From assembly GCA_032622095.1 (NCBI GenBank), contig CP136068.1, forward strand, positions 123,447,989 to 123,511,988: a stretch of DNA of 64,000 bases, given 5' to 3'. The stretch is from Siphonodentalium dalli (Eukaryota; Mollusca; Scaphopoda; Gadilida; Siphonodentaliidae). Each line of letters begins with the position of its first letter. Position 1 is the first letter of the stretch. Of the stretch, positions 20,154 through 61,710 are shown piece by piece. Position numbers and translations under genes: made by a program. The notes under the pieces were generated by a model. The model was not told the DNA's origin. It was given only the letters and a program-made list of their open reading frames with translations, and did no database searches.

Positions 20154-20418
20154 GAAATTTGTGTGTTTTGTGGGCGTGACTTAGAGTTCAAACTCTCTAA
20201 GAGGTCAACGAATACAGGGTACAGATCTGATAATTGGAAACAGATTTTGATCGCATAAATGGTGATTCCTATCAAGTCGGGCATGCCCTGGTCCATCGTA
20301 CACTTGGTTTGACGCCAAACGATGGAGGAACTCTGGTGTAGACAACGTGAACATACGTCAATCAAACTCTGTTCCTCAAGGGGTTCGCCAAATTGCAAAG
20401 AGAATTTACAATAGAAAA
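20154..20418 (+). repeat. 265-bp direct repeat, copy 2, abutting the retrotransposon
   Basis: Second copy of 19028-19292. Similarity ends exactly where retrotransposon-type sequence begins (20419). Confidence 0.9.
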
Positions 20419-23400
20419 GCATAAATCTTGACAGCTTCACCTTCCACTCATATGAAGCTGACCCCAACATATATGAATGCCTCAACCTGGACTCAACCAT
20501 CGACTCAGTTTCATCAGAGTCTGTCTTCAACCCAATGGAGGCAAGTACACCAGTACCACGAAATAGACCGAATAGCACACGGAACACCACCGGATCAACA
20601 TCATTTCGTACTGGACCGTACAAATTACCACCCAAGAGAAATATGAGGATAATGACAGTTAACTGCCGCAGCATAAGAGACAAACACGCCGAACTAGCTG
20701 CATCACTGGAATACACCAAGCCAGATATCGTAATAGGCACTGAATCATGGCTACAGGGAGTCAAACCTGGGGAAAACCCAACACCTGAGCACATCAAGTC
20801 AAGCGAAATTTTCCCAGAGAACTATGCGTGCTACCGAAATGACAGAGTATCCACTGGAGGGGGCGTCTTCATCCTTGTCCACAAGAACTTAATATCAACG
20901 GAGCAACCACAACTGGTGACAGACAGCGAAATAAACTGGGTCAAGGTCAGATCAACATCCAGCAAGGACATATTGATAGGGGCTTACTATATGCCACACA
21001 GAGAGAACCACCACATCGCAGAGCTAGAGAAGTCCATCAACCTAGCGACATCTGGAAAGCAAAAACACATGATCATCTGTGGGGACTTTAATTGCCCGGA
21101 TATAGAGTGGAACAGCTCAGTAGTAAACAGAGGAGCCCAAGACAAAGATATACAAACTCACCTACTAGAAATCATGTCAGAAAAAGGGCTAAAACAAATC
21201 CACGAACAACCAACGCGGGGAAAGAACTTGCTAGACCTGGTCTTCACCAACAATGCATCACTGGTAAAATCATCAACCAGCATACCAGGCATCTCTGACC
21301 ACGCCATAGTCATTACTGACATCGACATGAAGCCCAGATACCAACATTCAAAACCAAGGAAGTGCTATCTATATAAAAAAGCAGACTGGACACAACTTGG
21401 ACTGGATCTGCAAATACTGGGAGAAGGCCTACGTACACTAAATAGTGCAACCGTGGAGGATATGTGGAAACATCTGAAGGAGGGCATACATAGATCTATG
21501 GACCAACACATACCCTCTAAGCTGATATCACCAAAGCAGAACACTCCATGGGTAAACTATAAGATCAAGAAATTGCTACGAAAGAAACAGCGCCTATATA
21601 CACAGGCAAAGAAGAACAACAACTGGACCAACTATCGAGCCATGCAGAAAGAATGTAAAAGGGAAATGAGGAAGGCTGAGTGGGATTACATCAACGCTAA
21701 GATTAAAGAAGGTTTAGAACAAAAGTCGACAAAACCATTCTGGAGATACATCAAGAGCAGAAAACAAGATAACATCGGAGTGTCGCCGTTGAAATCGCAA
21801 GGCAAGCTGGTTGACGACCCAAAAGGCAAAGCAGAAATTCTGGTAAAGCAGTTCCAGTCAGTATTCACCAAGAACCAACCACCACTTCCTGACCTTCCAC
21901 CCAAATGCGAAAACATCGGCAAACTGACAGTGACAGTGAATGGCGTCGAAGCCCTGCTGAAGAGGTTAAACCCAACCAAAGCCTCTGGCCCAGACGGTAT
22001 CCCAAACTCCATCCTAAAGAAGTACGCAAAACAACTGGCACCTGCCTTCAGGCTCATATTCCAACTATCATTAGACACAGGCACATTGCCAAGGGACTGG
22101 CGCAGCGCCAACATAGCCTCAGTCTACAAAAAAGGAGACCGACATCAAGCGGAAAACTATCGTCCTGTGTCCCTAACATCAGTACCGTGCAAGCTACTAG
22201 AGCACCTCATATGCCGCCATATCCATGAACATCTGGAGAAGCACAACATACTAACAAAGCTAAACCATGGCTTTCGAAGGGGATATTCCTGCGAAACACA
22301 ACTAGCAGTGACAACACAAGACATCCTACAATCATTTGACAACAAGAAGCAGATCGACGTGGCCATCCTTGATTTCTCCAAAGCTTTCGACACTGTGCCA
22401 CACGACAGCCTATTGACCAAACTAAATCACTACGGTATCACAGGCCCGGTCAACAGATGGCTAGCATCCTTTCTGAAAGAAAGAAAGATGAGAGTTGCAC
22501 TCGAGGGATACTACTCAGAAGAAGTTGACGTGTTATCAGGAGTACCACAGGGAAAAGTATTGGGACCGCTGCTCTTTCTCTGTCACATAAATGACCTACC
22601 GGACACAGTAACATCACAAGTCCGCCTATTCGCAGATGACTGCCTCCTGTACCGCCAGATAAACACCTACAAAGACCACGAAATATTGCAACAAGACCTA
22701 CGCAAACTGGAACAATGGGCCACCAAATGGGGGATGCGCTTTAATCCAACTAAGTGCTACATTATGAGCCTAAAGCAGAAGACACAAAGATTTTACCAAC
22801 TGGCAGGGCAGATACTCCAAGAAGTCACAAACAACCCGTACCTTGGCGTCCAATTCTCCAATGACATGCAGTGGCATCACCACATCGAGTCCACCACGAA
22901 GAAGGCAAACTCCACCCTCGGCTTCCTTCGGCGTAATCTCAGGTACTGCCAAATGGATCTTAGAAAAACGGCATACATAGCATTAGTCCGCCCTCAGCTA
23001 GAGTATGCAGCAACAATCTGGGATCCTCACTATGAAAAGGACAAGACAAAGCTGGAGAAGGTGCAACGCAAAGGAGCAAGATTTATAAAACAGGACTACC
23101 GAACGAGAGAGAAAGGCTGTGTAACATCAATGCTAAGTGAACTTCAACTACCATCCCTAGAAGCAAGAAGAAAGGAACAGAGACTGACACTATTTTACAA
23201 AGTGGTAAAGGGATCAGCCCCGGGTATCAACCCCGAACACTACCTAAGAAACTACCGCCCAAAGAGGAAAAAGAAACCCACAAAATTCAAGGATTTTGTT
23301 AGTGACAACATCGTGGAGAAACTAACCACAAATAACGAAAGTGCCTACGAACCAATTCATACAAACACAGACCAATACAGATATTCCTTCTTCCCGAGGA

Positions 23401-23560
23401 CTGTACTTGACTGGAACAAACTGGACAACAGCACAGTCAATGCCGCCGACCTAGAAACATTCAAGGCGGCTCTGGGAGAACAAAAATAGCGCTCCTCACA
23501 CCGTCCTGTAAAAGCCAGCTTTGGTCACTAGGACGTAACAACTACAGATACAGATAACAG
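20419..23560 (+). mobile_element. Non-LTR (LINE) retrotransposon, 5'-truncated
   Basis: One long ORF encodes endonuclease plus reverse transcriptase. The frame remains open upstream of its first ATG to about 20418, where a TAG lies in the adjoining 265-bp repeat, so the 5' end looks cut off, without ORF1. The 3' untranslated region is short and ends near 'actacagatacagataacag', a short tandem tail of the type found at CR1/L2-like termini. I found no target-site duplication. Confidence 0.85.
20535..23489 (+). CDS. LINE ORF2: AP-like endonuclease and reverse transcriptase
   Basis: This 984-residue protein would nick target DNA and copy the element RNA there (target-primed reverse transcription). 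The endonuclease-exonuclease-phosphatase domain spans about residues 37-260 with the expected residues: N43 (VNCRS), E70 (GTESWL), GDFNCPD from 183, and S254-D255-H256. The reverse transcriptase covers about 480-760 with motif A DFSKAFD (D613), SGVPQG (668-673) and the catalytic FADD (699-702). K674 follows SGVPQG where S is usual. The C-terminus (DWNKLDNSTVN...TFKAAL) resembles CR1/L2/Crack-type proteins; exact clade not determined. ATG 20535 is the first methionine in an open frame that may begin earlier. There is no stop or frameshift within it, so insertion may be recent. Confidence 0.93.
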   Translation: MEASTPVPRNRPNSTRNTTGSTSFRTGPYKLPPKRNMRIMTVNCRSIRDKHAELAASLEYTKPDIVIGTESWLQGVKPGENPTPEHIKSSEIFPENYACYRNDRVSTGGGVFILVHKNLISTEQPQLVTDSEINWVKVRSTSSKDILIGAYYMPHRENHHIAELEKSINLATSGKQKHMIICGDFNCPDIEWNSSVVNRGAQDKDIQTHLLEIMSEKGLKQIHEQPTRGKNLLDLVFTNNASLVKSSTSIPGISDHAIVITDIDMKPRYQHSKPRKCYLYKKADWTQLGLDLQILGEGLRTLNSATVEDMWKHLKEGIHRSMDQHIPSKLISPKQNTPWVNYKIKKLLRKKQRLYTQAKKNNNWTNYRAMQKECKREMRKAEWDYINAKIKEGLEQKSTKPFWRYIKSRKQDNIGVSPLKSQGKLVDDPKGKAEILVKQFQSVFTKNQPPLPDLPPKCENIGKLTVTVNGVEALLKRLNPTKASGPDGIPNSILKKYAKQLAPAFRLIFQLSLDTGTLPRDWRSANIASVYKKGDRHQAENYRPVSLTSVPCKLLEHLICRHIHEHLEKHNILTKLNHGFRRGYSCETQLAVTTQDILQSFDNKKQIDVAILDFSKAFDTVPHDSLLTKLNHYGITGPVNRWLASFLKERKMRVALEGYYSEEVDVLSGVPQGKVLGPLLFLCHINDLPDTVTSQVRLFADDCLLYRQINTYKDHEILQQDLRKLEQWATKWGMRFNPTKCYIMSLKQKTQRFYQLAGQILQEVTNNPYLGVQFSNDMQWHHHIESTTKKANSTLGFLRRNLRYCQMDLRKTAYIALVRPQLEYAATIWDPHYEKDKTKLEKVQRKGARFIKQDYRTREKGCVTSMLSELQLPSLEARRKEQRLTLFYKVVKGSAPGINPEHYLRNYRPKRKKKPTKFKDFVSDNIVEKLTTNNESAYEPIHTNTDQYRYSFFPRTVLDWNKLDNSTVNAADLETFKAALGEQK

Positions 23561-36709: not shown

Positions 36710-37083
36710 ATTTCCATGCGACTGGTTCACGTGAATGGTTCATATGACATATCAGATTTTAGACCAGGACTTGGACAATGAATTACATGAAAGCACCAAT
36801 GCTCGCATAATTACTAGTAGGGAAACTAATTTTATATCTGAACTTAAAATATATGTTTTCCTTGGGTTGAATAGGAAGGACTTCTATTTAACTCCCTTAT
36901 GACAAAAATGTCACAGTACTATTAGTTGCCGGTTACTGCTCCATGTGATGCTTAACAATATGATAAACTTTATCTGGCAGCGAATCATCATGTGTTTAAC
37001 ACAGTTTATTTTTAATTAATCGCGGATGTACTATTAGTTTATACCACATATTTGCTTTGCTAAATATAATTCATTCATTTCAG
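36710..37083. other. Likely 5' intron or upstream region of the CCDC34 gene
   Basis: No exon recognised; ends in the acceptor 'attcatttcag'. The first exon is probably non-coding and further left, but I could not place it. Confidence 0.4.
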
Positions 37084-40300: not shown

Positions 40301-43300
40301 TGTGCGGGATAGTGTCACTAAATTTATCCTCTGGGGACCTCATTCTGCAAACACTATTTACAGGCTTGCTTAGATATACAATGTAAGCAAAACCACATTC
40401 ACAGAGTTGAGCTTTAAAACTTGGAACTTTCCAACTGTGTTGGTATCTCTTTTTAGATTCATCTATTATCCATCCATAAAGAGTTATATCTCTTACCGGT
40501 ATGTGTTTTCCCATTTTTAGCTCAACTTACTTTTGTAAGTTTGAGCTATTGCCATGGTTTGGCGTCCGTCATACGTGTGTCTGTGTGTGCGTGTGTCCGT
40601 CAACAATTTCCTTTGGCGCGGGCTACAGGTTGTACCTTTGGTCTGATCTTCATGAAATTTGTCATGAATGTTGAACGAGTGATTTTGGGGTCGTTCGGCC
40701 AAAAAACATGGCTGCCAGCAGCCATCTTGGATTTTACTCTTTGCATGACTAAATCCTTTGGCGCGGGCTACAGGTCGTTGTTTTGGTCGGAAGTTTATGA
40801 AATTTGTCATGGATGTTAACACTGTCATGTAGATGGGAACGAGTGATTTTGGAGTTGTTCGGCCAAAAATCATGGCCGCCAGCAGCCATCTTGGATTTTA
40901 CTCTTTGCATGACTAAATCCTTTGGCGCGGGCTACAGGTTGTACCTTTGGTCTAATCTTTATGAAATTTGTCATGAATGTTGACATTGACATGTAGATGG
41001 GAACGAATCATTGTGGGGTCATTCTGCCAAAAAACATGGCCGCTGGCGGCCATCTTAGATTTCAAAATTCAATCCATTGGCGCGGGCTACAGGTCGTACT
41101 GTTCGTCTGATCATCATGAAATTTGTCATGGATGTTAATATTGACATGTAGATGGGAACGAGTCATTTTGGGGTTGTTCGGCCAAAAAACATGTCCGCCA
41201 GCAGCCATCTTGGATTTTACTCTTTGCATGACTAAATCCTTTGGCCCGGGCTACAGGTCGTACCTTTGGTCTGATCTTTATGAAATTTGTCATGAATGTT
41301 GACATTGACATGTAGATGGGAACGAGTCATTTTGGGGTCATTCGGCCAAAAAACATGGCCACTGGCAGCCATCTTGGATTTCAAGATTCAATCCATTGGC
41401 GGGGGCTACAGATCGTACTGTTCGCCTGATCATCATGAAATTTGTCATTGATGTTAATAATGACATGTAGATGGGAACGAGTGATTTTGGGGTCGTTCGG
41501 CCAAAAAACATGGCCGCCAGCAGCCATCTTGGATTTTACTCTTTGCATGACTAATTCCTTTGGCGCGGGCTACAGGTTGTACCTTTGGTCTAATCTTTAT
41601 GAAATTTGTCATGAAAGTTGACATTGACATGTAGATGGGAACGAATCATTGTGGGGTCATTCGGCCAAAAAACATGGCCGCTGGCGGCCATCTTAGATTT
41701 CAAAATTCAATCCATTGGCGCGGGCTACAGGTCGTACTGTTCGTCTGATCATCATGTAATTTGTCATGGATGTTAATATTGACATGTAGATGGGAACGAG
41801 TCATTTTGGGGTCGTTCGGCCAATAAACATGGCCGCCAGCAGCCATCTTGGATTTTACTCTTTGCATGACTAAATCCTTTGGCGCGGGCTATAGGTCGTA
41901 GCTTTGATCAGAACATCATGAAATTTGTCATGGATGTTAACAATGACATGTAGATGGGAACGAGTGATTTTGGGGTCGTTCGGCTGAAAAACATGGCCGC
42001 CAGCAGCCATCTTGGATTTTACTATTTGCATGACTAAATCCTTTGGCGCAGGCTAGAGGTCGTACCTTTGGTCTGATCTTTATGAAATTTGTCATGAATG
42101 TTGACATTGACATGTAGATGGGAACGAGTCATTTTGTGGTCATTCGGCCAAAAAACATGGCCGCTGGCAGCCATCTTGGATTTCAAGATTCAATCCATTG
42201 GCGCAGGCTACAGGTCGTACTGTTCGTCTGATCATCATGAAATTTGTCATTGATGTTAATAATGACATGTAGATGGGAACGAGTCATTTTGGGGTCATTC
42301 GGCCAAAAAACATGGCCGCTGGCAGCCATCTTGGATTTCAAGATTCAATCCATTGGCGCGGTCTACAGGTCGTACTGTTCGTCTGATCATCATGAAATTT
42401 GTAGGTCGTAGCTTTGGTCAGATCTTCATAAAATTTGTCATGGATGTTAACAATTATACGTAGATGGGAACGAGTCCTTTTGGGGTCAATTGGCCAAAAA
42501 AAATGGCCACCAGCAGCCATCTTGTATTTTACTCTTTGCATCACTAAATCCTTTGGCGCAGGTTAGACATTTCAATTAGCACCTTTCCTATTCCTCCATT
42601 TACTGTCAACCATTAAATTATTCCCCTACCTAAGTTGAGCTACAGTGTCATTGACACTTTCATTATTATTGTTTCATCATTGGCTTCGCTATGAGTCTGA
42701 AGGAACTAAGGATATTTATATCTGAATGTTTTGTTTTTTTTGCTTGAATAATGATATCATTTCATCAGCGGAACTTGTTTTAAAATAGGGCTTCACGGTA
42801 TCCATCTCCACAATACCGACTTCGGTATTAAATGAAATACCATGGTATGACTAAATACCGTCAAGAATAATTTCCAAACATTTTGCTAGTCAAGATCCTA
42901 TCGAACATGCAGTACGCAATTCAATATTCGCGCGTGAATGCAGTGTCACGCGGACACACACAAATAGGACAACGCAATGATTGTCGCCTGTGATCGTAAC
43001 AATGTCCTAATGACGTCGCTTATGCAGAAATAACAGGTATTTAATTTACAATTTTTAATTCACAACAGAGCAAATTATTATCGAGAATCAAATTAATATG
43101 GCTCCTGGTTCGTTTTATAAAGAAGTTATACCATGAGGGGATTTAAGTCCAGATTATACTAAAAGGGTTAGGGCGTCTCCAACCAGTACCTATTTATCTG
43201 TGGTATCTCGATGATGGATAAACATTAGCAATTGGAAACAATTGTGAGAGTAACGTTTAAATTTCGTAATTGTATGGATGTCGATCATGGTCTAATTATT

Positions 43301-45039
43301 GCATTGTGTACACTAATTTAAGCTTCATATGAGACAACTATAAACACACATCCATCAGCGTACAACGTGTTGGCACTGCCTTTGTTAAAATTGCTTTTCG
43401 CACTTTGCTGCAGTTATGCACTGGGCATCTGGCTGGTTATCGTCTTGTCTCACTGGTTCTCGTTCAGTCTTGCTGGTTCTCGTTCATTACTTACAATACA
43501 ATATGACTAAATACTGAAAAACCGTGAAGCCCTATTTTTAAATTGAACAATTAGCACCAGTGCTGACCATTAAGACTGCCTCTAATCAGTTTAGGATTTC
43601 GTGGTTCAAGATTCGGTTTGATTGAAAACCATGGCACTTATTTGCTTCCAGATTCAATTAAACCCAAAATCAGATAATCGAAGGCCCCTAATTGAAATCA
43701 TGCCATGTTAAGCTATGACATACATGTATGGTATGGCACTTCATGTTCAGCTACATATATATAATTCCATTTAACATAACATAGGGGTAATTATTTTATT
43801 TTTATTGTAACCTTCTTTCTTTCTATAATGTCCAAATTATGACATTTGAGATTTATTGTGATATTCAATAAATTTTTTGTGTTCCTTCGATTAAATGTCT
43901 TGGACACTTTATGATGTCATGATTTGTTTCTGTTGAAATTTCGCAAAATATGATGTGGTTTTGGATTTGGTAACTTCATATTTGTGACCTGCCATATCAA
44001 ATCCAGTTGGAAGTCGGGATTTTTTTACCCTGTGCCAATGCATTCTCTTATATATGCGAGTCGACCATAGGTCGCCTCGCATATATAAGAGAATGCATTG
44101 GCCTAACAATTTTTTATCATGTTTTTTAAATAAATGTTTCTTACAATTTTTAGGACATAAAATAAAAAAAACATCCATTACCCTGCAGGGAGCCCCACAC
44201 ATATATAGAAGGTCACCTAGAAGAGTGTTGTCTGCTCATGTTTGTCTGGGGCTCTGTATGGGTGAAATTATAAAATTGTTAAAGAATACAAGAAAAAATT
44301 ATTAAAATTGTAAAAAATTGTTATGCCAATGCATTCTCTTATATATGCGAGGCAACCTATGGTCGACTCGCATATATAAGAGAATGCATTGGCACAGGGT
44401 AAAAAAATCCCGACTTCCGACTGGATTTGATATGGCGGGTCACATATTTTTAAAATGATGTGTAACAGGATTTCAATTTCTTTTTCAGCCATAAATTAAA
44501 CGAAACATTTGAAAAGTCTGACATTTCATCGGATGCTGAAAATGACTCCTCCAACCTGTCTCCATGGGAACTATGGCTAATAGAGAAAACAAAGGAAGAG
44601 AGGGTCAAACGGAAACAGAATACCGAGAAGAAAAAGGAAAATCGCATTAAGAAAAAGAATGAAGAACTGGAAAGTGATATCAAGTTAAAGAAAGCCTCAG
44701 ACAAGAGGAAAGAATGGTTGTCAATGAAAACCGATGAAGAAAAGATTAGAAAGAAAATGGTGAAAATGAGCATACAATCAGATACACAGATAAAAATATT
44801 GAAAGAGAAGGATGTTGAAGTGAAGTCTATTGAGAAATACAAAGAGTGGTTGATTCAAAAGAAGAAAGAAGAAAAGGAAAAGAAAAAACAAGGAAATGAA
44901 AAAAAGAAAAACGAAATGCTGAAGGCTAAGGACAAGCACGATAAAGCAGAAAAGTCATTCAAGAAGTGGGTGCGGAAAGCTGCAAAGAGACCAAAGACAG
45001 CACCGAGTAGCCTGGGGTATTGTGGCGGCAAACTTAAAG
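37084..45039 (+). CDS. CCDC34: CCDC34-like coiled-coil protein, C-terminal exon missing
   Basis: Two coding exons join in phase and give 272 residues plus one base. Residues 1-88 are polar and disordered-looking. From 113 comes SPWELW, followed by a highly charged K/E coiled coil with repeated KEWL units and the end signature SSLGYCGGKLKG; this order matches vertebrate CCDC34 (human protein about 370 residues). In mammals CCDC34 is needed for sperm flagella. The exon ends with a strong donor (AAAG|GTAAGT), so about 70-100 residues remain, probably between 45.1 and 49.9 kb; I did not find them. ATG 37093 is the first methionine but the frame is open back to the acceptor, so translation might start in an earlier exon. 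The 7.1-kb intron is full of MITEs. Confidence 0.85.
37367..37471. mobile_element. Half of a mariner-like palindromic MITE
   Basis: Starts TACAGTAATGCCCTAA eight bases after the CCDC34 donor GT and follows one arm of the palindrome found whole at 49.7, 52.6, 56.2 and 63.5 kb. The second arm is missing. Confidence 0.8.
37472..39498. other. CCDC34 intron, no further gene
   Basis: AT-rich intron. 'ctccctaaatttcctg..gtct' is repeated near 38495-38555, and 'cttcagtgcatctttcttggacataatatat' occurs twice near 39180-39265. No extra exon seen. Confidence 0.5.
39503..39714. mobile_element. PiggyBac-like MITE (CCCTTTCTGTACTAAAT ends)
   Basis: Flanked by TTAA on the left and TTAT on the right. Ends CCCTTTCTGTACTAAA and its inverse TTTAGTATAGAAAGGG. 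Same family at 46.1-47.1 and 52.35-52.82 kb. TTAA target plus CCC/GGG ends fits the piggyBac superfamily. Confidence 0.7.
39976..40376. mobile_element. Double-hairpin MITE
   Basis: Begins 'aagcctggatatagtgtgtctg', ends 'ctatttacaggctt', with a hairpin at each end built from 'gaggtccccagagggtga' and its inverse. Confidence 0.8.
40519..42640 (+). repeat. ~158-bp tandem array, about 12 units
   Basis: Starts with the foldback AGCTCAACTTAC..GTAAGTTTGAGCT and a 'gtccgtc' segment and ends 'taagttgagctacagtg'. Units carry 'ggcgcgggctacaggtcgta', 'catgaaatttgtcatg' and 'gccatcttgga'. Two unit types, ending '...ttttactctttgcatgactaaatcc' or '...tttcaagattcaatcc', partly alternate, suggesting a ~315-bp higher-order unit. 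Lies within the CCDC34 intron. Confidence 0.9.
42786..43534. mobile_element. Non-autonomous hAT-like element, 749 bp
   Basis: Ends TAGGGCTTCACGGTAT and, at the right, ACCGTGAAGCCCTA. Flanks TTTTAAAA and TTTTTAAAT could be an 8-bp duplication with one change. No transposase. Confidence 0.7.
43977..44451. mobile_element. MITE with TTGTGACCTGCCATATC ends and two palindromes
   Basis: A ~57-base inverted terminal repeat (ATATTTGTGACC.GCCATATC) continues into palindromes built from GCCAATGCATTCTCTTATAT at 44032-44104 and 44324-44397. The right end is about 37 bases before the CCDC34 coiled-coil exon. Confidence 0.8.
44489..45039 (+). CDS. CCDC34: CCDC34-like, coiled-coil exon
   Basis: Acceptor CTTTTTCAG|CC supplies the last base of the split serine codon; 183 full codons follow, ending in phase 1. 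It encodes the SPWELW motif and the charged coiled coil. Confidence 0.9.
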
Positions 45040-45170
45040 GTAAGTAGAGCCATAGCCTCACTATTTATATTTCTTTATTTCACATGCTCTAGTTACTGTT
45101 CTTACAAACATCGAACTGCACTTGTGTGTTACTGGCCATCAGTTTATGGCACGAGTGTGATTGCGTAAGG

Positions 45171-49920: not shown

Positions 49921-50016
49921 CTAATCTGAGCCGTGATCTTCATTCTCTCCTTGACTACTAACCATCTGTAGAATCTCTGATTTGTTATCACGATAATAAC
50001 TTGGAACCCTGTCTTT
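49921..50016 (-). CDS. Ankyrin/Dpy-30 gene, last coding exon
   Basis: Acceptor CATGTCGTTTCAG|AAAGAC; 31 codons [20 protein letters not shown].. to TAG. The start resembles exon 4 after its phase-0 boundary, which supports it as the true end. Confidence 0.85.
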   Translation of the reverse strand, partial: KDRVPSYYRDNKSEILQMVSSQGENEDHGSD

Positions 50017-53000
50017 CTGAAACGACATGAAGATAAGTTGTTTTGATGAAAGCAAGCCTACAAATAGTGTGTTTTTCATTTGCAGAATGAGGTCTCCAGA
50101 GGGTGAATTTAGTGATGCTACCATCACCAAATTCGCCCTCTGGTACCTCATTCTGCTTAGGCCTCATATTCTGTGAAGTATCTATATAGTCTTAAATTAG
50201 CATTGTTTTTCGATACTTTTTCCCTTCTGGGAAGTTTCTATATCTCCTAATTTGCAGAGTATAAAATGCATAATCGAGGTGGCTAATGGGTGAACATCAC
50301 CAACTTCAACTGGGGAACTTCAATCTGATCCTAGGTCTCCCATAGCAGTTGAGGCCAAAGCAGAATGAGGTTCATAGAAGGTGAATTTGGTGATGCTAGC
50401 CAACTGTGCGGGATAGTGTCATTAAATTCACCCTCTGGGGACCTCATTCTGCACATGTCAGTCAGATTATTAATAATTATTTCAAGGCTTGATAAGTATT
50501 GGTGTTTCATCAGTGGTACCATTTTTTGTGGTAAGTACTTTTTTTTTGCATTCATGAAAGCTATGGATTCCATTACATATTGATTGCTCCAGTATGAAAG
50601 TGCTTTTTTCATGAAAATTCATGTTCTAAAATATCATGCAAACCTCTCAAAGAATAATATTCCTCTGATTTGGCTGTTTCTGAGAGGCATGAACATGGTG
50701 TTTCCTCATCCTAAGTACAAGTAACACAGATGGTTATATTCCTGTCTCCAATTGAATCGGAAATTCTGAATCATGTTTTTTCCATTCATATGAATCATTG
50801 GTTTTTATGTCAATTTAATCAACAAAAAGTGTTGCATTCTATACCAAGAGAGTTAATACTACAGCCCTCATAATTGGCTACTGTAATCAGCAATGTTGAA
50901 GCCATTTGCTGAAGCAAACTGGGCCACGGCAAAAGGTTGCTGTGTGGATTGCTGATGCCAAACAATCTGATACTAGTACATTCCATACCATCTCGTCACT
51001 AGACTTACCACATCTTTAGCATTTTCATCAGCATTCTGCTCTGTAAGTAGTGATGACAACTCTTCGGACGTAGCCATGGCATAGTGTAGTGGAGTTCTGT
51101 TCAGCTGGAATTAAACAATTTTTTTTAAATGGTTACAAAATGTTGTATGATCCATTTAATAAAATATTTTGTTTGTATTACTAGTAAATATAACACGCAC
51201 CTGCAGTAATACTGAAATGGAATGATACATGTGTATAAGATTTCTAAAATTTAACCATATTCTCAATAGACTATTTAAATTTAATAGCCAGGTTCAGACA
51301 CACGTACTTGTAACTTGTAACATGTGTTGCCATTGCCAGTGAAAGTCACCTGAATCACATGACCATTTCGCATAAATGACATATAAGAATTTTTCATTGC
51401 TTACTTTTCAAATAAGAAAAGAATAGATAACCATATTTGTTTGTTGGAAATTTATTGCCAGTACCTGTTTTATGTAATATTTATATTCAAATATTGTACC
51501 AGTACATCTCAAGTAATAATGATATTGGTTGAGTTCACTCACGCTAACTTATGATAGATATGGTACATGTACTTCATTCAAATTTATGTATTAATTAATA
51601 TAAAATGGTTTAATTTAAATTATACACAATCTGATTCGATGGTCCACATATCATCAGATTCCAACAACAACAACATTTCTTTAAAAGACACTTTAGTTAT
51701 CAGAATCGATTTATTACCCAAAATTAATGCTAACCACCCTCAACTGTAGTATAAAATTTTCCAAAACGTGAAATATCAATGTTTTGTTCAACGCAATTTG
51801 GTATCTAGAGTATGTTAGTCACTCATCGAATATTTGTCAGGACACCAAATATTCCAATTGGTGAAAAATAACAGATTTTAAAAATCGATATCTGATAACT
51901 CTGAGCATTGATGGTTGGTTTCCTCAACTCGATTCAAACATTTTTTACCCACGAAGCCAAAGATTTAGTAATTTAGGAGCGTTAATTCGGATTATGCATC
52001 ATTCATTTCATTTCCATTATTTATAAGTATTACATACATGTATAATACAAATTGGTAATTGGATCAGATGACAAGTAAAATAATTATACAGTTGTCAGTT
52101 TTAGTTTGTAAAACTTACATTGTCTCGGCACTTGACTGTGTTTGGCACATGTGAAATGAGGAATTCTACCGCATCGGTCTTATCGTGCAATGCAGCTATA
52201 TGTAGTGGTGATCTCCCATACACATCTTTACAGAAAGCTATTTTCTTATTCTGTTGTATCATATTTTGCTGTGACTCGGTGATGATTCCGGATTGGACTG
52301 ATTTGAATAACTCTGCTACATTCTCCTGCAAAAGTCACATAGCCACATTTAACTATTTCTATTCTAAATGGATTCTCCCACTCAGTTATAAAATAATACA
52401 TTGGAATGGTCTATAATTCATTTGGAGGGGTATTCACGTAATAATATCAGACGACAGACAGATAATACATGAGCAGAATGATTCATATCAATTGATTAGT
52501 GGGAAATGTTCAGATAAATAAGTTCAACAAACAACCTATTACATGTATCTGAAAATTTCCTAAAGGAACTACATTAATGCCCTAAATAATCGACTCCTTA
52601 ACCACAGCAGAATATGGGTAATTTTTCAGGATTTAGTTGGAAATATGGCTTGTTGCCATTCATCGGAAAGCTCTCACTAAGAGCTTTCTGATGAATGGCA
52701 ACAAGCCATATTTCTAACTAAATCCTGAAAAATTTGCCATAATTCTGCTATGGTTAAGGAGTCGATTATTTTGGGCATTACTGTACTCATCAATGAGTAT
52801 TTACTATAGAAAGGGTTCATAAATTATTATTCAGAAAATCAGAACTATTTGAGTACCAAGGCAACCACCTATTTGTTGTTTGTAACAGAACAAACATTTA
52901 TAAAAGGCATAGTATGTGCTTATTTTAATGCTACAAACTTCTAATTTACTATTCAACAACAAGACCCACTTGCAGACTGTAAGATTCAGTTAGTATTGCC

Positions 53001-56000
53001 CCCTCACTTCAAAAACATAATTTGTCCTGATTCAATCACTCAATCACTTAACCCTTTACCCAACAGAAGGGCCCTGTGCCAATGCATTCTCTTATATATG
53101 CGAGTCGACCATAGGTCGCCTCGCATATATAAGAGAATGCATTGGCTTAACACATTAAAAATTATAAAATTGTTAAAGAATGTAAAAAATTGTTAAAGAA
53201 TGTAAGAAAAATGTTAAAAAGTGTTATTTTTTTTTTTTTTTTAGGCCAATGCATTCTCTTATATATGCGAGGCGACCTATGGTCGACTCGCATATATAAG
53301 AGAATGCATTGGCACAGGGCATAACTGTAACTATCACAATGTGGTCAAGGAGCCGGTTCCAATGATATCCATATTTGTATGGTTCTATTGAGACAGACCG
53401 AAGATATTTTAGGCTGTTGAAGCTTTATTTGGCCGGTTTTGGCCGGTTTGTTGGGTAAAGGGTTAACAAGTGGAATTATTTCTGCCAACAAGAGCAGCCT
53501 CGTATAATTCATATAAAAGAATGATGATATGTGCTGCCAACTTGAACTAGAAATACGTGCATGCCTGCTGATGAAAGATTATTAGCTAGGTGTATTCTGT
53601 ATACCCCATTGGGGTGATTCACTTGAGCATCTAAAAAGTTCTACCCAAGTTATAAACCAACATACCCATAGGGAGCCTCGTGTATACAAGAGAATACATT
53701 GGCCTAACAATATTTACCTTGACCTTGTAAGCCAGTGCATTCTCTTATATATGCAAAGCTCCTTATGGAAGACTTGCGTATATAAGAGATTGCACTGGCA
53801 CAGGATCTTTAATGCTGCACCAGCACCATTCCCATCATTAAAGGGTTGATGGATTATTAATTTGAACTTTTTACCTTGATTTGTGGTATAGACTGAATGA
53901 ATTTGTTGACTTCGTCGGGAAGGCCTTCTGTGCTGACTTGGTCGATGACTGTTGACAGTTTATCATAACTGTCAGACAGCAGTTGATGTAATGAATCGTA
54001 ATTCTCGTGTTCGATCATGTTACTGATGTAGTTGTCTGCAAAAAGAAAGGCAAAATTATGTTTATAGATGAACATTCAAAAGAATATCTCGACGCACTTT
54101 CCTTTCAGCAATTCAGCTACAATGTAGTTATAAATAAAACTTGAACAGGGTTGGCAGGGTACATACATGTAATGTAGTCAATACATGTGTTACAATCCTG
54201 GAAAGTTTAGTAATTGTTTATAACTGTTTTTAGCCTTATAAAATCTGGCCTTATTATCAACACAAAGCCTCTTGATTATAAAGTTATCCATCGTCATCCT
54301 CAATTAGGTCCGAGACCGTCAGCTCGTCGACTTTTTACTGGGCCACTAATCAGTCTCGATGGTGATAAATAGTAGATTTCAAAAATTTATATCTAATAAC
54401 TCTGAGCTTTGATAGGTGGGTTCCTCGACTCTAATCAAATATTTTTTACCCCCGAATCCAAATTATGCATCTTTAATTAATTTGAGGTCTTGGAAGAATG
54501 TGTAAATTATTAAAGTTTTGGAAAGAAGTTATTTAGCAAAAATGGAATTTGCAATTTTTAGTGGTTGTCTCAGGCATATAATTTCACCAAATTGTTTAAG
54601 GACAATTTATTGAATTAGATCGTTTTGTGGGGACAAGAGACTCTGAACTTTTTAATTAATGTACATGTATGCATTATTTTTCTGCACCTATGGCCTCTAT
54701 GTTCTCCTGTATTTTGTGTTCCTCGGCGATGTCTCTGGCAGTTTTGTTGTCTCCATCTCTGTCTGCTGGACTGAAGCCCGAGTTTATCACAGCAATAAGA
54801 TCAGCACCTGATAAATAGAAAATTTGAATTCCATAAAACCAATTCCTCTGTAGCTATAGTTGGAGATATACTCAAGGTTCCAGACCTCAAGTTTTAACAA
54901 CCACATTTTTCATAAACTATAATTTTACAGTACCATTGGCTAACAAGACCAAGGTAAATGTTGTTAGGCCAATGTATTCTCTTATATATGCGAGGATCCC
55001 TGTGGGAGACTCACATATATAACGGTTTTCACAAAATTTCAGAAGTCATGGAAGGGTTAACAACAACAGTAATATATAACTATAATTTTGCATTACCATT
55101 GACTTTGTTGAAAAAAAAAAAAACAACACACTGGAGACTTAATCTGTGCATAGAGCCATAGATGTCCCCCAAAATAGCCTTTAAATCATTTGAAGATACC
55201 GGTATACAAAATAAATTTACAGAAGATATCTCCCAGATGGTAATTCTTGTCTCAAACTTTTTATCTCACACAAATAATACCAAATAAAAAGGTAAAAAAA
55301 AACTTTGGCTGGAGCCCTAGATACATCTTTAAATCACAGAGAAAATGTGAATTTTTGAAGTCATTTAACAAACACCATTTCTCAGGTTTCTGTCTGGTTG
55401 CTCTTAAAGCAATGAGAAATACTCTGGCAGGGTGATCAAATAGAAATGGAGAATATTTGTGCTCAAAGTAGTTATTTTTGCAAATTTATATCCAAATTGA
55501 CAACACACGTCATTCTTATATTGTAATTAAAGGCAATGACTCTTGGTGGCGAAATCGTTTTGGTTAGTTTATCTTCGATTGTTGCATCCCAGATTGAGAA
55601 ATAAATATTTACAATTGAGCATAGTTTGGATGATGTTTTCTATGGAGTGGTGCGGCTGATTGGCTTGAGATTTTTGGCGATGTTAGTAGAAAGCTACATT
55701 CCAGTTGGCATACATGTACATGTAGCTCCTGAGCACTAATTTATTAATTACACGCATCCAAACAAGTCCATAATATGTCTTTAAAATAGTCATTTAAAAA
55801 ATTAATACTATTAGGGTTATTATCAGAATCAATGGATTGCTTGTGATATTTGATATATACCACAGTTACATGTACCATAGCTATAGTGTCATTGACATGT
55901 ACATTAAGACATACCATGTTGAGCTGCGAGTCTGTGTAGTTCTGTCCGACCCTGCTCGTCTCTCTCCCTCACGAGCGATATATCGTCCTCATTCTCTTCA

Positions 56001-59000
56001 CTCACTGTTGGCAGGTTTGGTGTCTTCAAAGAGGCAGCCTCTTTTGCCCTATACGAAGTAGAATTGTAATATCGGATAAAGTATCATTACACAATGATGT
56101 AGGAGGGAAGAGCTTGCTAGGAATGCTGGCTAATAGTGATCGTTGAAATTAATTGGAAATACAAGTACTAATAGTCATTTTGATCAGAGTTTTTTTTTAT
56201 TTTTTCAGTAAGCTGCACAGCCATTGTTAAATACAGTAATGCCCTAAATATATGACTCCTTAACCACAGAAGAATTATGGGTAATTTTTCAGGATTTAGT
56301 CGGAAATATGGCTTGTTGCCATTCATCGGAGTGAGAGCTTTCCGATGAAATTGCAACAAGCCATATTTCCGACTAAATCCTGAAAAATACCTATAATTCT
56401 GATGTGGTTAAGGAGTCGATTATTTAGGGCATTACTGTACATACGCAGCTCAGAGGATAAATTCCAACAAGAATCAGAATCATGCTTCTCATTTTGATTC
56501 TCACAAAATATCCGTATTTCCCGTATTTCTTCTTTATTTGATTCTAATGTAGATTTTTGCCACAAAAAATTATTAGTTTTAACCCTTTACCCAACAGAAC
56601 GGCCATGTGCCAATGCATTCTCTTATATATGCGAGTCGACCATAGGTCGCCTCACATATATAAGAGAATGCATTGGCTTAACACTTTAAAAATTATAAAA
56701 TTGTTAAAGAATGTAAGAAAAAATGGTAAAAAGTGTTAAAAAAGTGTTTTTTTAGGCCAATGCATTCTCTTATATATGCGAGGCGACCTATGGTCGACTC
56801 GCATATATAAGAGAATGCATTGGCACAGGGCATATTAAACTGTAACCATCACAATGTGGTCAATGAGCCGGTTCCAATGATACCCATATTTGTATGGTTC
56901 TATTGAGACAGACCAAAGATATTTTAGGCTGTTGAAGCTTTATTTGGCCGGTTTTGGCCGGTTTGTTGGGTAAAGGGTTAAGCCCAATCAAGCAATATTT
57001 TGTATTGACATACTTTCTCTGAAGCTCTTCTTGTTCCTTTCTCCTTCTTTCTTCTTCTGCTTCCTTCTCCAGCTTTATTCTTTCTTCTTCCTCTATCTTT
57101 CTCTGTTCTTGCAGGCGTTGTACACGATTCTCTTCTTCCAGTTCCGCCTCAGCTTCCTCAAGCTGGATTTGTTCGTACTCCTTCTCTTGCTGTGATGAAT
57201 GACAACAGAATTTTACGTAGCTTATTATCTTCAGGCCAAAGAAAAAATAGAAGTGATTGGGGTTTCCTTACCACCCTATTTTAAATCTCTTACCTTAATT
57301 TATTTATTTTTTTGGTGGTTTTCAATAAAATCTTTTGAATTTTTTTGAAAAATAATAATAAAAAAATACCGTTTTAATCTCTCAGAATGGGTTGATTTCT
57401 CTGTCAAAGCAATGCATCTATTATAGTTCATACAATGACAATCAAAATTAATCTTGAGCAGCTGAAATATACCACATGAAAAGCTATATAAAAATATGTC
57501 AACAAATTTTTGTAAATAAATACAATTTTTTTTAATTTAAGCCTGGCTACCAACTCTAATTGTCCCCGAAAAGAAATTGGGGGGGGGGTGGGTCCTATAG
57601 AAATCAGCAATGTCCTTGCGTGTGATTATACAAATGTTGTCAGAGAATACACGCTATAAATTCCCAGTTATTCACTTGCAGCGAAGTTCAATTAATAATC
57701 TGAAATAAAAAAATCCAAAACGGTTTAATCATAGCTGAAAATACCTTCAAGTGATTGAATTGTATTCACTATACTAAATACTACCCAGTTGATAAAGGGT
57801 TAACGGTGTATGATTTTTATGGTGTCTTTGATACTTACGTTCTTGATATGATCGACAGTTTCTTTATATTTGTACAGCCACTGAGCAAGATATTCTATAG
57901 GGTCCCATGGTCTCCTCTCAGCTATTTCCGCCAGGGCGACAGTTAGTGGCTTACCAATCGTGTCGGCAAGATACCTGCTGTCCATTCCATTCGGCACCTT
58001 AGCGTCGGGTCTGTTCTTATTGTCGTTGGGGATATATTGTCTCACTTTTTCTCGTTTCTTTGGCACCAAATCAGAATTGTCCACTTTACATCCTGAAAAT
58101 AGATGTTTTCTATTGTCTTGGTCATCCTCTTAAAGAGAACGAAAAAAAATTTAAGAGGATTGTTGCACTTGTAACTTTTCATAATTGTTGACAGTTTCTA
58201 AATGAACCAGTTCTATAAATCAAGAGTTTCTCATGGACATTTTAACTTTGCTGCTGTGAGATACATAACTATTATGGATGTATAATAGTGCACATTGAAT
58301 GGCATAACTTCAACAGCCTAGCAGATGACATTATGACCTCAGCGGTGAAGAGGTATAAGAATAAAAAAATAAAAACTACAAATATATTAAATAATTAAGT
58401 GGGGGACTTTGTCTAGAAATTATGATTAAGGATCTGAGTACCGAAACACACTGTTCACATCTGTCCGCTGTTAACTTTACCTTTGGTTGAGGAACTTGAT
58501 GAAGGTCGTGTCCATACTTTCTGTGGTCGTTGAAGAATTTCTTTGATTCTGTTTTGAAGATCGTCGTAACGAAGCATTGTTTTGTCAGATTCATTCTCGT
58601 GGTAATCTCTTGGTGTCTTCCCAAGCTGTGGAGAAGTTAGTTCAAGTTGTCTTATTTGCGTTACGAAATTTTAATGGTCTATTATGATGCAAGATGGGTA
58701 GAAACTGGTATTTAACCCTTCCATTACTGGAGCTTCCTGAAATTTGGCGAAAACCCTGTGCCAATGCATTTTCTTACATATGAGAGTCTCACATAGGGAG
58801 CCTCGCATAGAGAGAATACATTGTCCAAACAATATTTACCTTGACCTTGCAAGCCAGTGTATTCTCTTGTATATACAAGGCTCCCTATTTGAGACTAGTA
58901 TATATAAGAGAATGCACTGGCACATGATCTTTAATGACGCACCAGCACACCTCCCATCATGTAAGGGTTAATAATTGCAATCCCCCCATAGATAATTGCA

Positions 59001-61710
59001 GAGATCAGCAAATCAGAAATATATTAGGCATTAATTAAATTTATGCTTTGATTCATGGAGAAATTAAGGACATCAGTTACTCAATTGTTTAGGTTCATAG
59101 ATAAAGATACATGGATGTTTAAATCTATTTTTTGTTGCAGTCTACTGGTATTTTTAACAACACAGCTTGTCCCTGTACTTACCATGTCCTTGACTTCATC
59201 ATCTGCTCCTAGTGCCTTCAATCGCTCGTACAATTCACTGTTAGAAGCTCCCGCATAGTGTAGTGCAGTTCTACCGAACTGAAACAATTCAATGTTATCC
59301 ATGAAAATACTTATTTTTCTTAATGATCACAGAATACGTAATATAATAAATTTACCGAGATGTATAATTCTGAGTCAAGTTTGATACATGTAACCCTATA
59401 AACTTTTCTACTGGGTAAACTAAAAATAGAAGGATATCTAATTAAGACATTCCTGGTTTGTTGATTAACCCTTTACCCAACAGAACGGCCCTGTGCCAAT
59501 GCATTCTCTTATATATGCGAGTCGACCATAGGTCGCCTCGCATATATACGAGAATGCATTGGCTTAACACATATTAAAAATGATAAAATTGTCAAAGAAT
59601 GTAGAAAAATATTATAAATATTGTTAAAAAATGTAAGAAAAAATTATAAAATTGTTAAAGAATGTAAGAAAAAATGGTAAAAAGTGTTAAAAAAGATTTT
59701 TTTTAGGCCAATGCATTCTCTTATATATGCGAGGCGACCTATGGTCAACTCACATATATAACAGAATGCATTGGCACAGGGCATAACTGTAGCCATCACA
59801 ATGTGGTCAATGAACCGGTTCCAATGATATCCATATTTGTATGGTGTTATTGAGACAGACCGAAGATATTTTAGGCTGTTGAAGCTTTATTTGGGCATTT
59901 TTTGCCGTTTTGTTGGGTAAAAGGTTAACTTGAATCTGAATTGATAATAATTTTACCTTCAATCAAATCTGAAAAGTGAATTTCATGAATATCTCAATTT
60001 CTGAGGGAGGGGGGGGGGGGGGGGGGGGTGTTGACTAGGTTGGACTTCTCAAGTTTTTATTACTGAAAGTGAATGTCTTCCTAGTGATAAAAATATACTC
60101 ATATCTTAAAGTGGCACAGAGATTTGATTTATTTCTAAAAACTAAGTCTGCGATAATTTTAATGGATTCATTGAAAATGTTTAGTACAAGCATTAGATTA
60201 TTTAATAATAATAATAATAATAATCTTCTCTGGAGTTTTTTCTCGATTTTTTTGCATTAGATTATATATTCGCAATATATACTAATAGAGAAATTTAGCA
60301 CATATCTTTCTAAACGGCAATTTTAATTTCTTGTTGTGTGAAACTAATAATTCAACTGAAGACTGAAATGTTATTACGCATCAACCACCTTCGAAGGCCT
60401 TGAGTCCATTTAAATGTTTAACCCTTTGAGTGCCAGGTCGATTTTTGTATCAACCCATATACCCTGTGCCAATGCATTCTCTTATATATGCGAGTCGACC
60501 ATAGGTCGCCTCGCATATATAAGAGAATGCATTGGCCTAACATTTTTTTTTTTTTTTTTTTTTACAATTTTTTACAATTTTAATAATTTATTCTTTAACA
60601 GACTTATTTTGTAGGTTTAGGGCCGATGAGATTGGCCCCTGGCACTCAAAGGGTTAAGTCACAAGCACTATGTGTTCAATATATGTTTTGTATAGACCTA
60701 CATTGTCTTGATGTTTGAGTGTGGTGGGCACTTCTTTCATGATTTCATCAATGATCTCATCCCGTTCGTAGATAACTGCTTTCTGTAAAGGTAGGAGGCC
60801 TGTTCTGTCCTCAATTTTTGTGAATTTGTCAGAAAGCAGTGACGTGATGTCTTCTTTTGAACCAAAAACGATGGCATTCTGTAGATCTTGCGCTTTTTTC
60901 TGGTAAAAAGAATTTTAGGATGATGTACTAGGTGTCACAAATTAGTCCTTCTGATATAGTTTCTGTCTGTGATATACCGATAGCTATATATATATAGCTC
61001 TAGACTATGCTGAATTGTACATGTATATCTCCCAGTTTTTGGCTCAATAAAAATGTAACACAACATAAGAGTAATTTTATGACAGCTGTTATCGTAGATC
61101 AGAATCTAAGCCTATCCCCAAAATTTAATTTTACAAACGAATAATGGGCATATTCAATCTCGAATGGCAATCAAAACTGGGTTCATAAAAACCACTTGCT
61201 TCAATAAAATTTTATGACTCACTATTACGTGCTTTATATCCACATATTTGATATATAATTATTAATAAATAAAACTTCGCCTCTACAATAACATGTAATT
61301 ACCTGCCATTCCAAGATGTCTTCCAAATGGTCTGCATTTTCAATAGACTTGTGTCGAACGTCAACAACATCCGGCCAAAAATCCCACCCATTAATGATAA
61401 GCTCCTCGATTTCGGCAACATCGAGTTTGGATTCCAATAACTTTTCTATTTTCTTCTTCACCATCTCAGTTGCACCTGATCCAAGATCTAATGCTGTCTC
61501 TCCATTCATATTCCGCAGTGAAAAGTCAACTTTTTCCACTAACGCTTCGATAATCTCAGTTTTTGCATTATTTGCCACTGCTATATGAAGGATTGTTTCA
61601 CCCTCCTCATTTCGTAATTTTGCATCATCGGTGCTCTCCAACAGTTCTTTTACGTCGCTCACATTGTTGAACTTGACAGCTGAGTAAAGCTTTGAATTCA
61701 CAAATGCCAT
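49921..61710 (-). CDS. Ankyrin - Dpy-30 motif - coiled coil - ankyrin protein
   Basis: Twelve coding exons join with matching phases into 696 codons and a stop. Residues 1-282 hold degenerate ankyrin repeats ([34 protein letters not shown]). Residues about 322-360 are a Dpy-30 motif with [18 protein letters not shown], closest to DYDC1/DYDC2-type proteins. Residues 368-425 are an E/K/R coiled coil. Residues 455-696 hold a second ankyrin set ([39 protein letters not shown]). Dpy-30 motifs dimerise and bind an amphipathic helix; related proteins sit in flagellar radial spokes or in adenylate/nucleoside-diphosphate kinases, so an axonemal scaffold role is inferred. ATG 61710 lies five bases after an acceptor, so a non-coding exon precedes it. 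I know no standard name for this architecture. Confidence 0.88.
50057..50493. mobile_element. Double-hairpin MITE in the last intron
   Basis: Begins 'aagcctacaaatagtgtg' and ends 'attatttcaaggcttg'; hairpins at both ends. Confidence 0.8.
50494..51008. other. Intron, nothing assigned
   Basis: No exon or repeat recognised between the MITE and coding exon 11. Confidence 0.5.
51009..51104 (-). CDS. Ankyrin/Dpy-30 gene, coding exon 11
   Basis: Exactly 32 codons, [24 protein letters not shown], phase 0 at both ends. Confidence 0.92.
51640..51995. mobile_element. AGGTAC/TTAA-family MITE, diverged
   Basis: 'tcagattccaacaacaacaacatttctttaa' at the left inverts the 36.68-kb end; the right half follows the 11.2- and 62.1-kb copies and ends 'cgttaattcggattatgcat'. 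Confidence 0.6.
52119..52325 (-). CDS. Ankyrin/Dpy-30 gene, coding exon 10
   Basis: 69 codons, phase 0 at both ends, with the best ankyrin consensus of the protein ([20 protein letters not shown]). Confidence 0.93.
52353..52815. mobile_element. PiggyBac-like MITE with a nested mariner-like MITE
   Basis: Left TTAA then CTATTTCTATTCTAAATGG; the right end is 'tactatagaaaggg' with TTCA in place of TTAA. It starts about 24 bases upstream of coding exon 10. Confidence 0.65.
52570..52795. mobile_element. Mariner-like palindromic MITE
   Basis: Complete two-armed copy inserted in the piggyBac-like MITE; arms centred on 'gctctcactaagagc'. Confidence 0.8.
53052..53462. mobile_element. PiggyBac-like MITE (CCCTTTACCCAACA ends)
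   Basis: TTAA at both sides (53048-53051, 53463-53466). Ends CCCTTTACCCAACA and inverse. Carries two palindromes of GCCAATGCATTCTCTTATAT type separated by a T-run, then 'ggccggttttggccggtttg'. Close copies at 56.6 and 59.5 kb. Confidence 0.88.
53668..53845. mobile_element. Truncated ATGCATTCTC-palindrome MITE
   Basis: Two decayed palindromes and a right end 'cattaaaggg' before TTGA; left end lost. Confidence 0.5.
53875..54035 (-). CDS. Ankyrin/Dpy-30 gene, coding exon 9
   Basis: 53 codons after the split aspartate, mostly helical linker ([19 protein letters not shown]), phase 0 end; corresponds to the second half of exon 1. Confidence 0.88.
54265..54476. mobile_element. AGGTAC/TTAA-family MITE, partial
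   Basis: 'taactctgagctttgataggtgggttcctcgactc' and the end 'aattatgcatctttaa' match the family; the left edge is unclear. Confidence 0.6.
54688..54807 (-). CDS. Ankyrin/Dpy-30 gene, coding exon 8
   Basis: Ankyrin unit [20 protein letters not shown]. The donor ATAG|GTGCAG is chosen because it keeps phase and avoids a TAA a few codons further. Confidence 0.82.
54955..55056. mobile_element. Truncated piggyBac-like MITE
   Basis: One ATGCATTCTC-type palindrome, then 'gtcatggaaggg' and TTAA, the right end of the 63.1-kb family. Confidence 0.55.
55061..55914. other. Intron, nothing assigned
   Basis: AT-rich intron sequence with short ORFs that lack splice support. Confidence 0.5.
55915..56048 (-). 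CDS. Ankyrin/Dpy-30 gene, coding exon 7
   Basis: An acidic linker followed by the start of the second ankyrin set, [14 protein letters not shown]; phase 1 end. Confidence 0.88.
56232..56439. mobile_element. Mariner-like palindromic MITE
   Basis: Complete palindrome TACAGTAATGCCC...GGGCATTACTGTA; the centre has lost a few bases compared with 49.7 kb. Confidence 0.85.
56583..56977. mobile_element. PiggyBac-like MITE (CCCTTTACCCAACA ends)
   Basis: TTAA at both sides (56579-56582, 56978-56981); same layout as 53.1 kb. Confidence 0.88.
57014..57189 (-). CDS. Ankyrin/Dpy-30 gene, coding exon 6 (coiled coil)
   Basis: 58 codons plus two bases of E/Q/K/R-rich coiled coil; donor AAA|GTATGT. Confidence 0.88.
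57190..57838. other. Intron, nothing assigned
   Basis: Low-complexity A/T runs and a G-run near 57580. Confidence 0.5.
57839..58092 (-). CDS. Ankyrin/Dpy-30 gene, coding exon 5 (Dpy-30 motif)
   Basis: 84 codons after the split glycine; carries [20 protein letters not shown] followed by [13 protein letters not shown], the Dpy-30 dimerisation helices. Confidence 0.93.
58481..58625 (-). CDS. Ankyrin/Dpy-30 gene, coding exon 4
   Basis: 48 codons plus one base. Starts [15 protein letters not shown], then a basic S-rich linker; its start parallels exon 12. Confidence 0.9.
58716..58967. mobile_element. PiggyBac-like MITE (CCCTTCCATTACTGG ends)
   Basis: TTAA at both sides (58712-58715, 58968-58971). 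Different terminal sequence from the CCCAACA family but the same internal palindromes. Confidence 0.8.
59183..59278 (-). CDS. Ankyrin/Dpy-30 gene, coding exon 3
   Basis: Exactly 32 codons, phase 0 at both ends, starting [10 protein letters not shown]; counterpart of exon 11 (same length). Confidence 0.92.
59469..59924. mobile_element. PiggyBac-like MITE (CCCTTTACCCAACA ends)
   Basis: TTAA at both sides (59465-59468, 59925-59928). The spacer between palindromes is expanded by 'attgttaaagaatgtaagaaaaa' repeats. Confidence 0.85.
60007..60225. repeat. Simple repeats: G-run and (AAT)n
   Basis: A ~20-base G-run near 60009-60028 and an AAT tract near 60202-60222, inside an intron. Confidence 0.8.
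60422..60653. mobile_element. PiggyBac-like MITE (CCCTTTGAGTGCCAGG ends)
   Basis: TTAA at both sides (60418-60421, 60654-60657). Third terminal type, with one ATGCATTCTC palindrome inside. Confidence 0.85.
60702..60899 (-). CDS. Ankyrin/Dpy-30 gene, coding exon 2
   Basis: 66 codons, phase 0 at both ends. Ends [10 protein letters not shown], paralleling exon 10 ([10 protein letters not shown]). Confidence 0.92.
61303..61710 (-). CDS. Ankyrin/Dpy-30 gene, coding exon 1
   Basis: 136 codons, phase 0 end (GGCAG|GTAATT). Two ankyrin-like units start at residues 36 ([10 protein letters not shown]) and 69 ([10 protein letters not shown]); the exon ends LEDILEWQ. Confidence 0.92.

Follow-up and report, generated by a model that had tools for sequence, protein, structure and literature searches.

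The window analysed here, a 64,000-nucleotide stretch of the scaphopod Siphonodentalium dalli (contig CP136068.1, positions 123,447,989 to 123,511,988), belongs to a 2.2-Gb, nine-contig genome and carries on its minus strand, from position 61710 to 49921, a 12-exon gene for a protein of 696 residues. The protein combines ankyrin repeats with a Dpy-30 motif. On balance we favour the reading that this one gene encodes a scaffold, probably ciliary, laid out as an ankyrin arm, a DYDC-like middle and a second ankyrin arm resembling the first. The gene model, its coding constraint, the domains, the DYDC likeness and the mutual similarity of the arms were all computed here.

A single coding unit under constraint

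The gene is real, animal-type and one coding unit. Splicing its exons yields a coding sequence of 2091 nt without internal stops. All 11 introns have GT donors and AG acceptors, and phases agree at every junction (in order 0,0,0,1,0,2,1,1,0,0,0), including junctions 1/2, 2/3, 3/4, 9/10, 10/11 and 11/12, which are phase 0 as an earlier sequence-only reading of the window had held.

Used as a query against the genome, the protein hit another full set of 12 exons on the same contig, inverted and ~214 kb away (G000:C8:123270829-123283806, plus strand; its exon 1 at C8:123270829-123271236). The near-identical copies share 96.6–99.0% identity over long aligned blocks of exons and introns, with one block at 84.6%. 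Their coding exons differ at 19 codons (16 synonymous, 3 nonsynonymous) and show no indels; the frame is preserved, as is the dinucleotide at each of the 11 donors and 11 acceptors. Given 1652 nonsynonymous versus 436 synonymous sites, three or fewer nonsynonymous changes out of 19 have a binomial P of 6.6e-9. This 16:3 bias and the freedom from indels are strong sequence evidence that the gene model is coding and under purifying selection, although they say nothing about transcription. The 12-exon, 11-intron, 696-residue product that the sequence-only reading had placed on one gene is thus upheld, by the splice sites and by their retention, with the frame, in the second copy.

The second copy is, we infer, at least as likely to be an unmerged second haplotype as a recent duplication, and in either case the comparison of copies still tests coding constraint. 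A probe at window position 37000 likewise has an inverted partner near the second copy (C8:123300936), and other near-identical ankyrin exons are paired hundreds of kilobases apart (C5:172.44/172.84 Mb and C9:190.14/190.88 Mb). Together, the inverted pair and the other such pairs in the assembly suggest unmerged haplotypes or recent segmental duplications.

A DYDC-like core with a charged helix

Pfam profiles detect Dpy-30 at residues 319–359 (50.8 bits, 1.3e-13; cut-off 22) and Ank_2 over the whole protein (108 bits, 3.5e-31; cut-off 27.3). Searched separately, both halves remain above the Ank_2 cut-off (N-terminal 67.3 bits, C-terminal 49.9 bits), so the profile search bears out both domain assignments of the sequence-only reading. 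Outside this genome, the animal proteins compared were solved structures. The whole protein gave 407 matches to solved chains at E values up to 1; among the 60 listed, the best stretches cover either the ankyrin arms or residues from 318 on, and DYDC1 (9fqr) and DYDC2 (8wzb and 8j07) match from about 318, in one stretch each.

The hub is encoded by exons 5 to 7. Exon 5 (57839..58092; residues 283–367) begins with linker and, from residue 319, encodes MDSRYL, a start like that of DYDC, together with the Dpy-30 motif; exon 6 (57014..57189; residues 368–426) encodes a helix rich in Glu, Lys and Arg; exon 7 (55915..56048; residues 426–471) contains a possible DYDC-like tail and the beginning of the C-terminal ankyrin arm. 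Among solved chains the hub best matches DYDC1 (9fqr, E 3.3e-14, over its residues 1–111), followed by DYDC2 (8wzb, 2.4e-13, and 8j07, 9e-12); radial spoke protein 2 (7.6e-5) and Dpy30 proper (0.0033) are weaker. The match to DYDC1 pairs residue 319 onwards with the very first residue of DYDC1. The genome also encodes a separate DYDC-like gene, on contig C5, whose Dpy-30 exon ends, like exon 5, nine residues past WLYKY and in phase 0. Our protein aligns with its product at a score of 211, taking in a short LPT-acidic tail. By sequence comparison, the middle of the protein is DYDC-like.

The helix that follows the Dpy-30 motif is 60% charged. It holds 33 opposite-charge pairs at i+3/i+4 against a shuffle mean of 22, a number reached by 10 of 5000 shuffles, and shows no heptad enrichment (3813 of 5000 shuffles reach the observed level). 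On these statistics a charged single alpha-helix is a better description of it than a coiled coil. The order ankyrin–Dpy-30–helix–ankyrin described by the sequence-only reading stands, but its coiled coil is doubtful. The accessible part of a preprint says that DYDC1 contains an extended single-helix structure (PMC13228466).

Starting translation at the MDSRYL methionine would divide the locus into two genes or transcripts, one for an N-terminal ankyrin protein and one for a DYDC–ankyrin protein, and that methionine does align with the starts of DYDC1 and of the genome's own DYDC-like gene. We give this division a slim chance: 35 in-frame residues precede the methionine within exon 5, and the junction of exons 4 and 5 is phase-matched (1 to 1), in the second copy as well.

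A further Dpy-30 exon lies elsewhere in the genome (L019, G000:C6:156552600-156554800), presumably AK7-like.

Two mutually similar ankyrin arms

The N-terminal arm is formed by exons 1 to 4. Exon 1 (61303..61710; residues 1–136) supplies the start codon, ankyrin repeats (Ank_2 at 8–85) and a helical stretch up to 136. Exon 2 (60702..60899; residues 137–202) is ankyrin, exon 3 (59183..59278; residues 203–234) is a single short ankyrin repeat and exon 4 (58481..58625; residues 235–283) includes a helix and a Ser-rich linker. On the C-terminal side, exon 8 (54688..54807; residues 471–511) completes the ankyrin unit begun in exon 7, and exon 9 (53875..54035; residues 511–564) is a helical-looking linker for which no counterpart was detected in exon 1. 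Exon 10 (52119..52325; residues 565–633) is again ankyrin, exon 11 (51009..51104; residues 634–665) a short ankyrin repeat, and exon 12 (49921..50016; residues 666–696) ends with the stop codon. A single-sequence AlphaFold2 model of exon 1 consists of helices only, with a mean predicted local distance difference test score of 63.1 and a predicted template modelling score of 0.42; its quality is too low to support a fold search. Compared with solved structures, the linker region of exons 8–10 has a designed helical protein as its best match (E 0.0019), which is uninformative.

The two halves align colinearly with a Smith–Waterman score of 184, whereas the best of 2000 shuffles scores 76. Profile comparison, on which the sequence-only reading had staked the likeness of the halves in advance, returns a colinear hhalign match of residues 31–248 to 453–679 (probability 97.1%, E 5.2e-11), from profiles of two near-identical or identical rows each (effective number of sequences, Neff, 1). 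In a 9 x 9 matrix of segments, exon 2 pairs with exon 10 (Smith–Waterman 68) and exon 3 with exon 11 (64), each pair being reciprocal best and in order. The one-to-one correspondence once proposed between exons 1–4 and 9–12 survives for these two pairs and finds no support for the outer ones. Exons 4 and 12 score 27 in the same matrix, neither being the other's best, and 350 of 2000 shuffles do equally well (with the edges of exons 10–12 placed one residue off). Exons 1 and 9 score 24, at background level. Exon 1 shows a weak, non-reciprocal match to exons 7–8 (47), its best partner being exon 2 (49).

The strongest segment of likeness is an ungapped block of 91 residues, 158–248 against 589–679, with 30 identities and a score of 148. 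For comparison we took 15 other ankyrin frames of the genome, chosen by a crude motif count and many of them longer than the arms; 12 are of full listed length, L008, L009 and L018 are shorter and probably clipped at the locus edge, and the set is not independent, as L011/L014 and L012/L013 are near-identical. Against these frames the ungapped test reaches at most 87 with the whole N-terminal half and 62 with the whole C-terminal half. Blastp between the two 91-residue blocks gives 62.4 bits, with next-best values among the 15 frames of 35.8 (N-terminal) and 41.2 (C-terminal); Smith–Waterman scores against the same frames stay at or below 106 and 115 for the N- and C-terminal halves, respectively. 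Among the candidates scored elsewhere in the genome, the best matches of the arm cores are 22.1 bits (N core) and 35.1 bits (C core).

Three other lines of argument for a duplication were set aside. The linkers 86–136 and 504–564 look alike by eye, but 2108 of 5000 shuffles are equally good; as the linkers are dissimilar, we make no claim of a duplication spanning the entire 250-residue module. The exon edges are weak proof, since phase-0 edges at this repeat start are common in the genome: a candidate phase-0 acceptor before an in-frame xGxT(P/A)LHxA occurs 32 times (exon 3 is one, its copy another, and several assembly pairs are also among them) and not once in the control. The equal 96-nt length of exons 3 and 11, noted in the sequence-only reading and confirmed here, adds a little more. 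A high absolute score was also rejected as proof, as other ankyrin pairs score comparably, and the case for duplication rests instead on the mutual best fit of the arms. On that sequence criterion, exons 2–3 and 10–11 fit one another best, and they are probably old duplicates from one ancestral segment.

Several observations weigh against the favoured reading, those on the arms first. Among 105 pairs of other ankyrin frames, 14 reach an ungapped score of at least 148 (median 120), and at least 12 score 198 or more by Smith–Waterman (median 125), above the 184 of the arms; several of the high-scoring pairs are near-copies of one another. When the N core and the C core were searched against the genome at E values up to 10, each returned its own exons and other ankyrins but did not list the exons of the opposite arm, the exons being short and only 23 and 80 candidates, respectively, being scored. 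As to the hub, the DYDC-like tail by itself gives no significant match (333 of 5000 shuffles are equally good), and the junction that closes exon 6 is phase 2, against phase 0 at the end of its counterpart in the DYDC-like gene. Dpy-30 stands at the beginning of the DYDC chains (residue 1 in 9fqr and 8j07, residue 20 in 8wzb), but here 318 residues precede it. Finally, we infer the location in a cilium and the action there for a protein known here from its genome sequence alone.

The high scores of other pairs, the unlisted opposite arm, the common position of the phase-0 edges and the dissimilarity of the linkers, of exons 4/12 and of exons 1/9 are what would be expected had there been no duplication, with arms of separate origin that are alike as ankyrin repeats are and exon edges at the usual position for ankyrin genes. 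Because other pairs reach comparable absolute scores, we raised our estimate of this explanation from very slight to small. Against it, each arm fits the other best by both measures (148 versus at most 87 and 62; 62.4 bits versus 35.8 and 41.2), the exon pairs 2/10 and 3/11 are colinear reciprocal best matches, and among the candidates scored in the genome the cores have no other match beyond 22.1 and 35.1 bits.

Relation to ciliary Dpy-30 proteins

Parts of this architecture have precedents. The sequence-only reading knew of no named family with this layout, which overlooks ARCP-1 as well as DYDC1 and DYDC2, the proteins that the hub resembles. ARCP-1 (Caenorhabditis elegans F34D10.6) combines ankyrin repeats with a DPY-30 domain; it binds PDE-1, places it in cilia and is enriched at sensory endings, according to the available portion of its description (PMC6953435). 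It unites both domains in one chain, like the 696-residue protein, and acts as a scaffold; that portion calls it homologous to ankyrins and mentions neither a DYDC-like core nor duplicated arms (PMC6953435). It is the closest named protein with both domains, as compared by description and not by sequence. In DYDC1 and DYDC2, as in our protein, a charged helix comes immediately after the Dpy-30 motif, and one intron position is common to the hub and the genome's own DYDC-like gene. Their solved chains, of only 159–177 residues, are too short for such ankyrin arms, whereas here the core is embedded between arms. Radial spoke protein 2 (7jrj), which we take to be from Chlamydomonas, is a larger ciliary protein with Dpy-30 close to its beginning; its best match covers Dpy-30 and the nearby helix only. 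The Dpy-30 homologue of COMPASS belongs to the same motif family, but its match is much weaker (0.0033) and its chains, of 56–106 residues, lack arms.

In the parts of the literature on ankyrin and Dpy-30 that were available, ARCP-1 is the sole protein described with both, some other co-mentions being separate list entries; the available part of a Giardia atlas names a flagellar DPY-30 protein and does not state ankyrin repeats. The main text of a paper on the D/D-domain superfamily (PMC8339350) does not contain the word 'ankyrin'. Within the same available literature, including that on ARCP-1, we did not meet a DYDC-like core flanked by two mutually similar ankyrin arms. Ankyrin with DPY-30 was thus known already (ARCP-1), as was the hub (DYDC); the placing of a DYDC-like core between two similar ankyrin arms appears, against that literature, to be new. 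The protein may nevertheless be a common invertebrate one that merely lacks a name.

Structural work on radial spokes indicates how such a hub could act. As stated in the available excerpts, spoke proteins form dimers through their DPY30/RIIa domains, which dock on an amphipathic helix belonging to RSPH3 or CFAP91, heterodimers form between AK7 and either AK9 or EFCAB5, and DYDC2 lies within the heads of radial spokes 1 and 2 (RS1/RS2), beside RSPH1, PPIL6 and CAMK4 (PMC11779644). This genome encodes a Radial_spoke_3 protein (C1:132.86 Mb). In our protein the middle would comprise a Dpy-30 dimerisation/docking domain, a charged single alpha-helix and perhaps an LPTV-acidic tail. By analogy with the spoke domains, two chains would pair through Dpy-30, either with each other as a homodimer or with a different DPY30 protein as a heterodimer. 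The resulting four-helix bundle would grip the amphipathic helix of an RSPH3- or CFAP91-type ciliary anchor, leaving the ankyrin arms, along with the stiff charged helix, to hold clients, for example signalling enzymes. The four-armed scaffold envisaged by the sequence-only reading would arise only from a homodimer; the spoke heterodimers offer another outcome (PMC11779644).

Two more specific roles compete within this picture. In the first, a real possibility though short of even, the protein is a structural subunit of motile-cilium spokes that replaces or accompanies DYDC in RS1/RS2, docked on RSPH3, with arms that serve packing and hold no signalling client. The best solved matches of the hub (DYDC1/DYDC2), the position of DYDC2 in the spoke heads and the Radial_spoke_3 gene all favour it. 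So does an exon-like CCDC34 frame nearby on the opposite strand (window 44466-45047, plus; Pfam CCDC34, 1.4e-22), as CCDC34 has a ciliary role. It is countered by the separate DYDC-like gene that the genome already has and by the absence of any chain with both ankyrin and Dpy-30 among the 60 listed of 407 solved matches.

The second role, which we hold to be somewhat unlikely, is that of an ARCP-1-type scaffold keeping PDE1 and receptor cyclases at sensory endings. It draws on the domain pair, PDE-1 binding and sensory enrichment of ARCP-1 (PMC6953435); the likeness, however, is one of description, not of sequence, domain order or repeat count, and the DYDC likeness of the hub is as suggestive of spokes as of sensory cilia. 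Most probably the protein is a ciliary docking scaffold, with a motile-cilium spoke and a sensory ending both possible sites.

Surroundings of the gene

Introns of the gene contain near-perfect palindromic repeat units (CCAATGCATTCTCTTATATATGCGAG...), one of which, at window 60460-60545, folds with z = -14; similar units are seen by eye near 53060-53310, 56590-56830 and 59485-59780. They are probably foldback elements or miniature inverted-repeat transposable elements. An open frame of 1024 codons with endonuclease and reverse transcriptase domains (window 20415-23489, plus strand) is probably a retrotransposon without long terminal repeats, and 40673-42402 is occupied by a tandem array whose nested periods are 164, 319 and 483 bases. 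On another contig (G000:C7:19.06-25.61 Mb), at least 28 Ank_2 matches of nearly equal score, at least 26 of which have an open frame of 108 codons, extend over 6.5 Mb and are a dispersed family of one ankyrin exon.

Implications

A bolder history, which we regard as doubtful, would have a whole DYDC gene captured between copies of an ankyrin segment, with ARCP-1 as a descendant of the product. Nematodes lost motile cilia, and a spoke module could then have become a sensory scaffold for cyclic guanosine monophosphate signalling.

The protein illustrates how a larger scaffold can incorporate a docking/dimerisation domain, with similar arms on either side of it. If the layout is conserved, it would join a DYDC-like radial-spoke docking module and ankyrin-type cargo arms in a single chain, and would offer a testable path from axonemal docking to ARCP-1-style scaffolding in sensory cilia.

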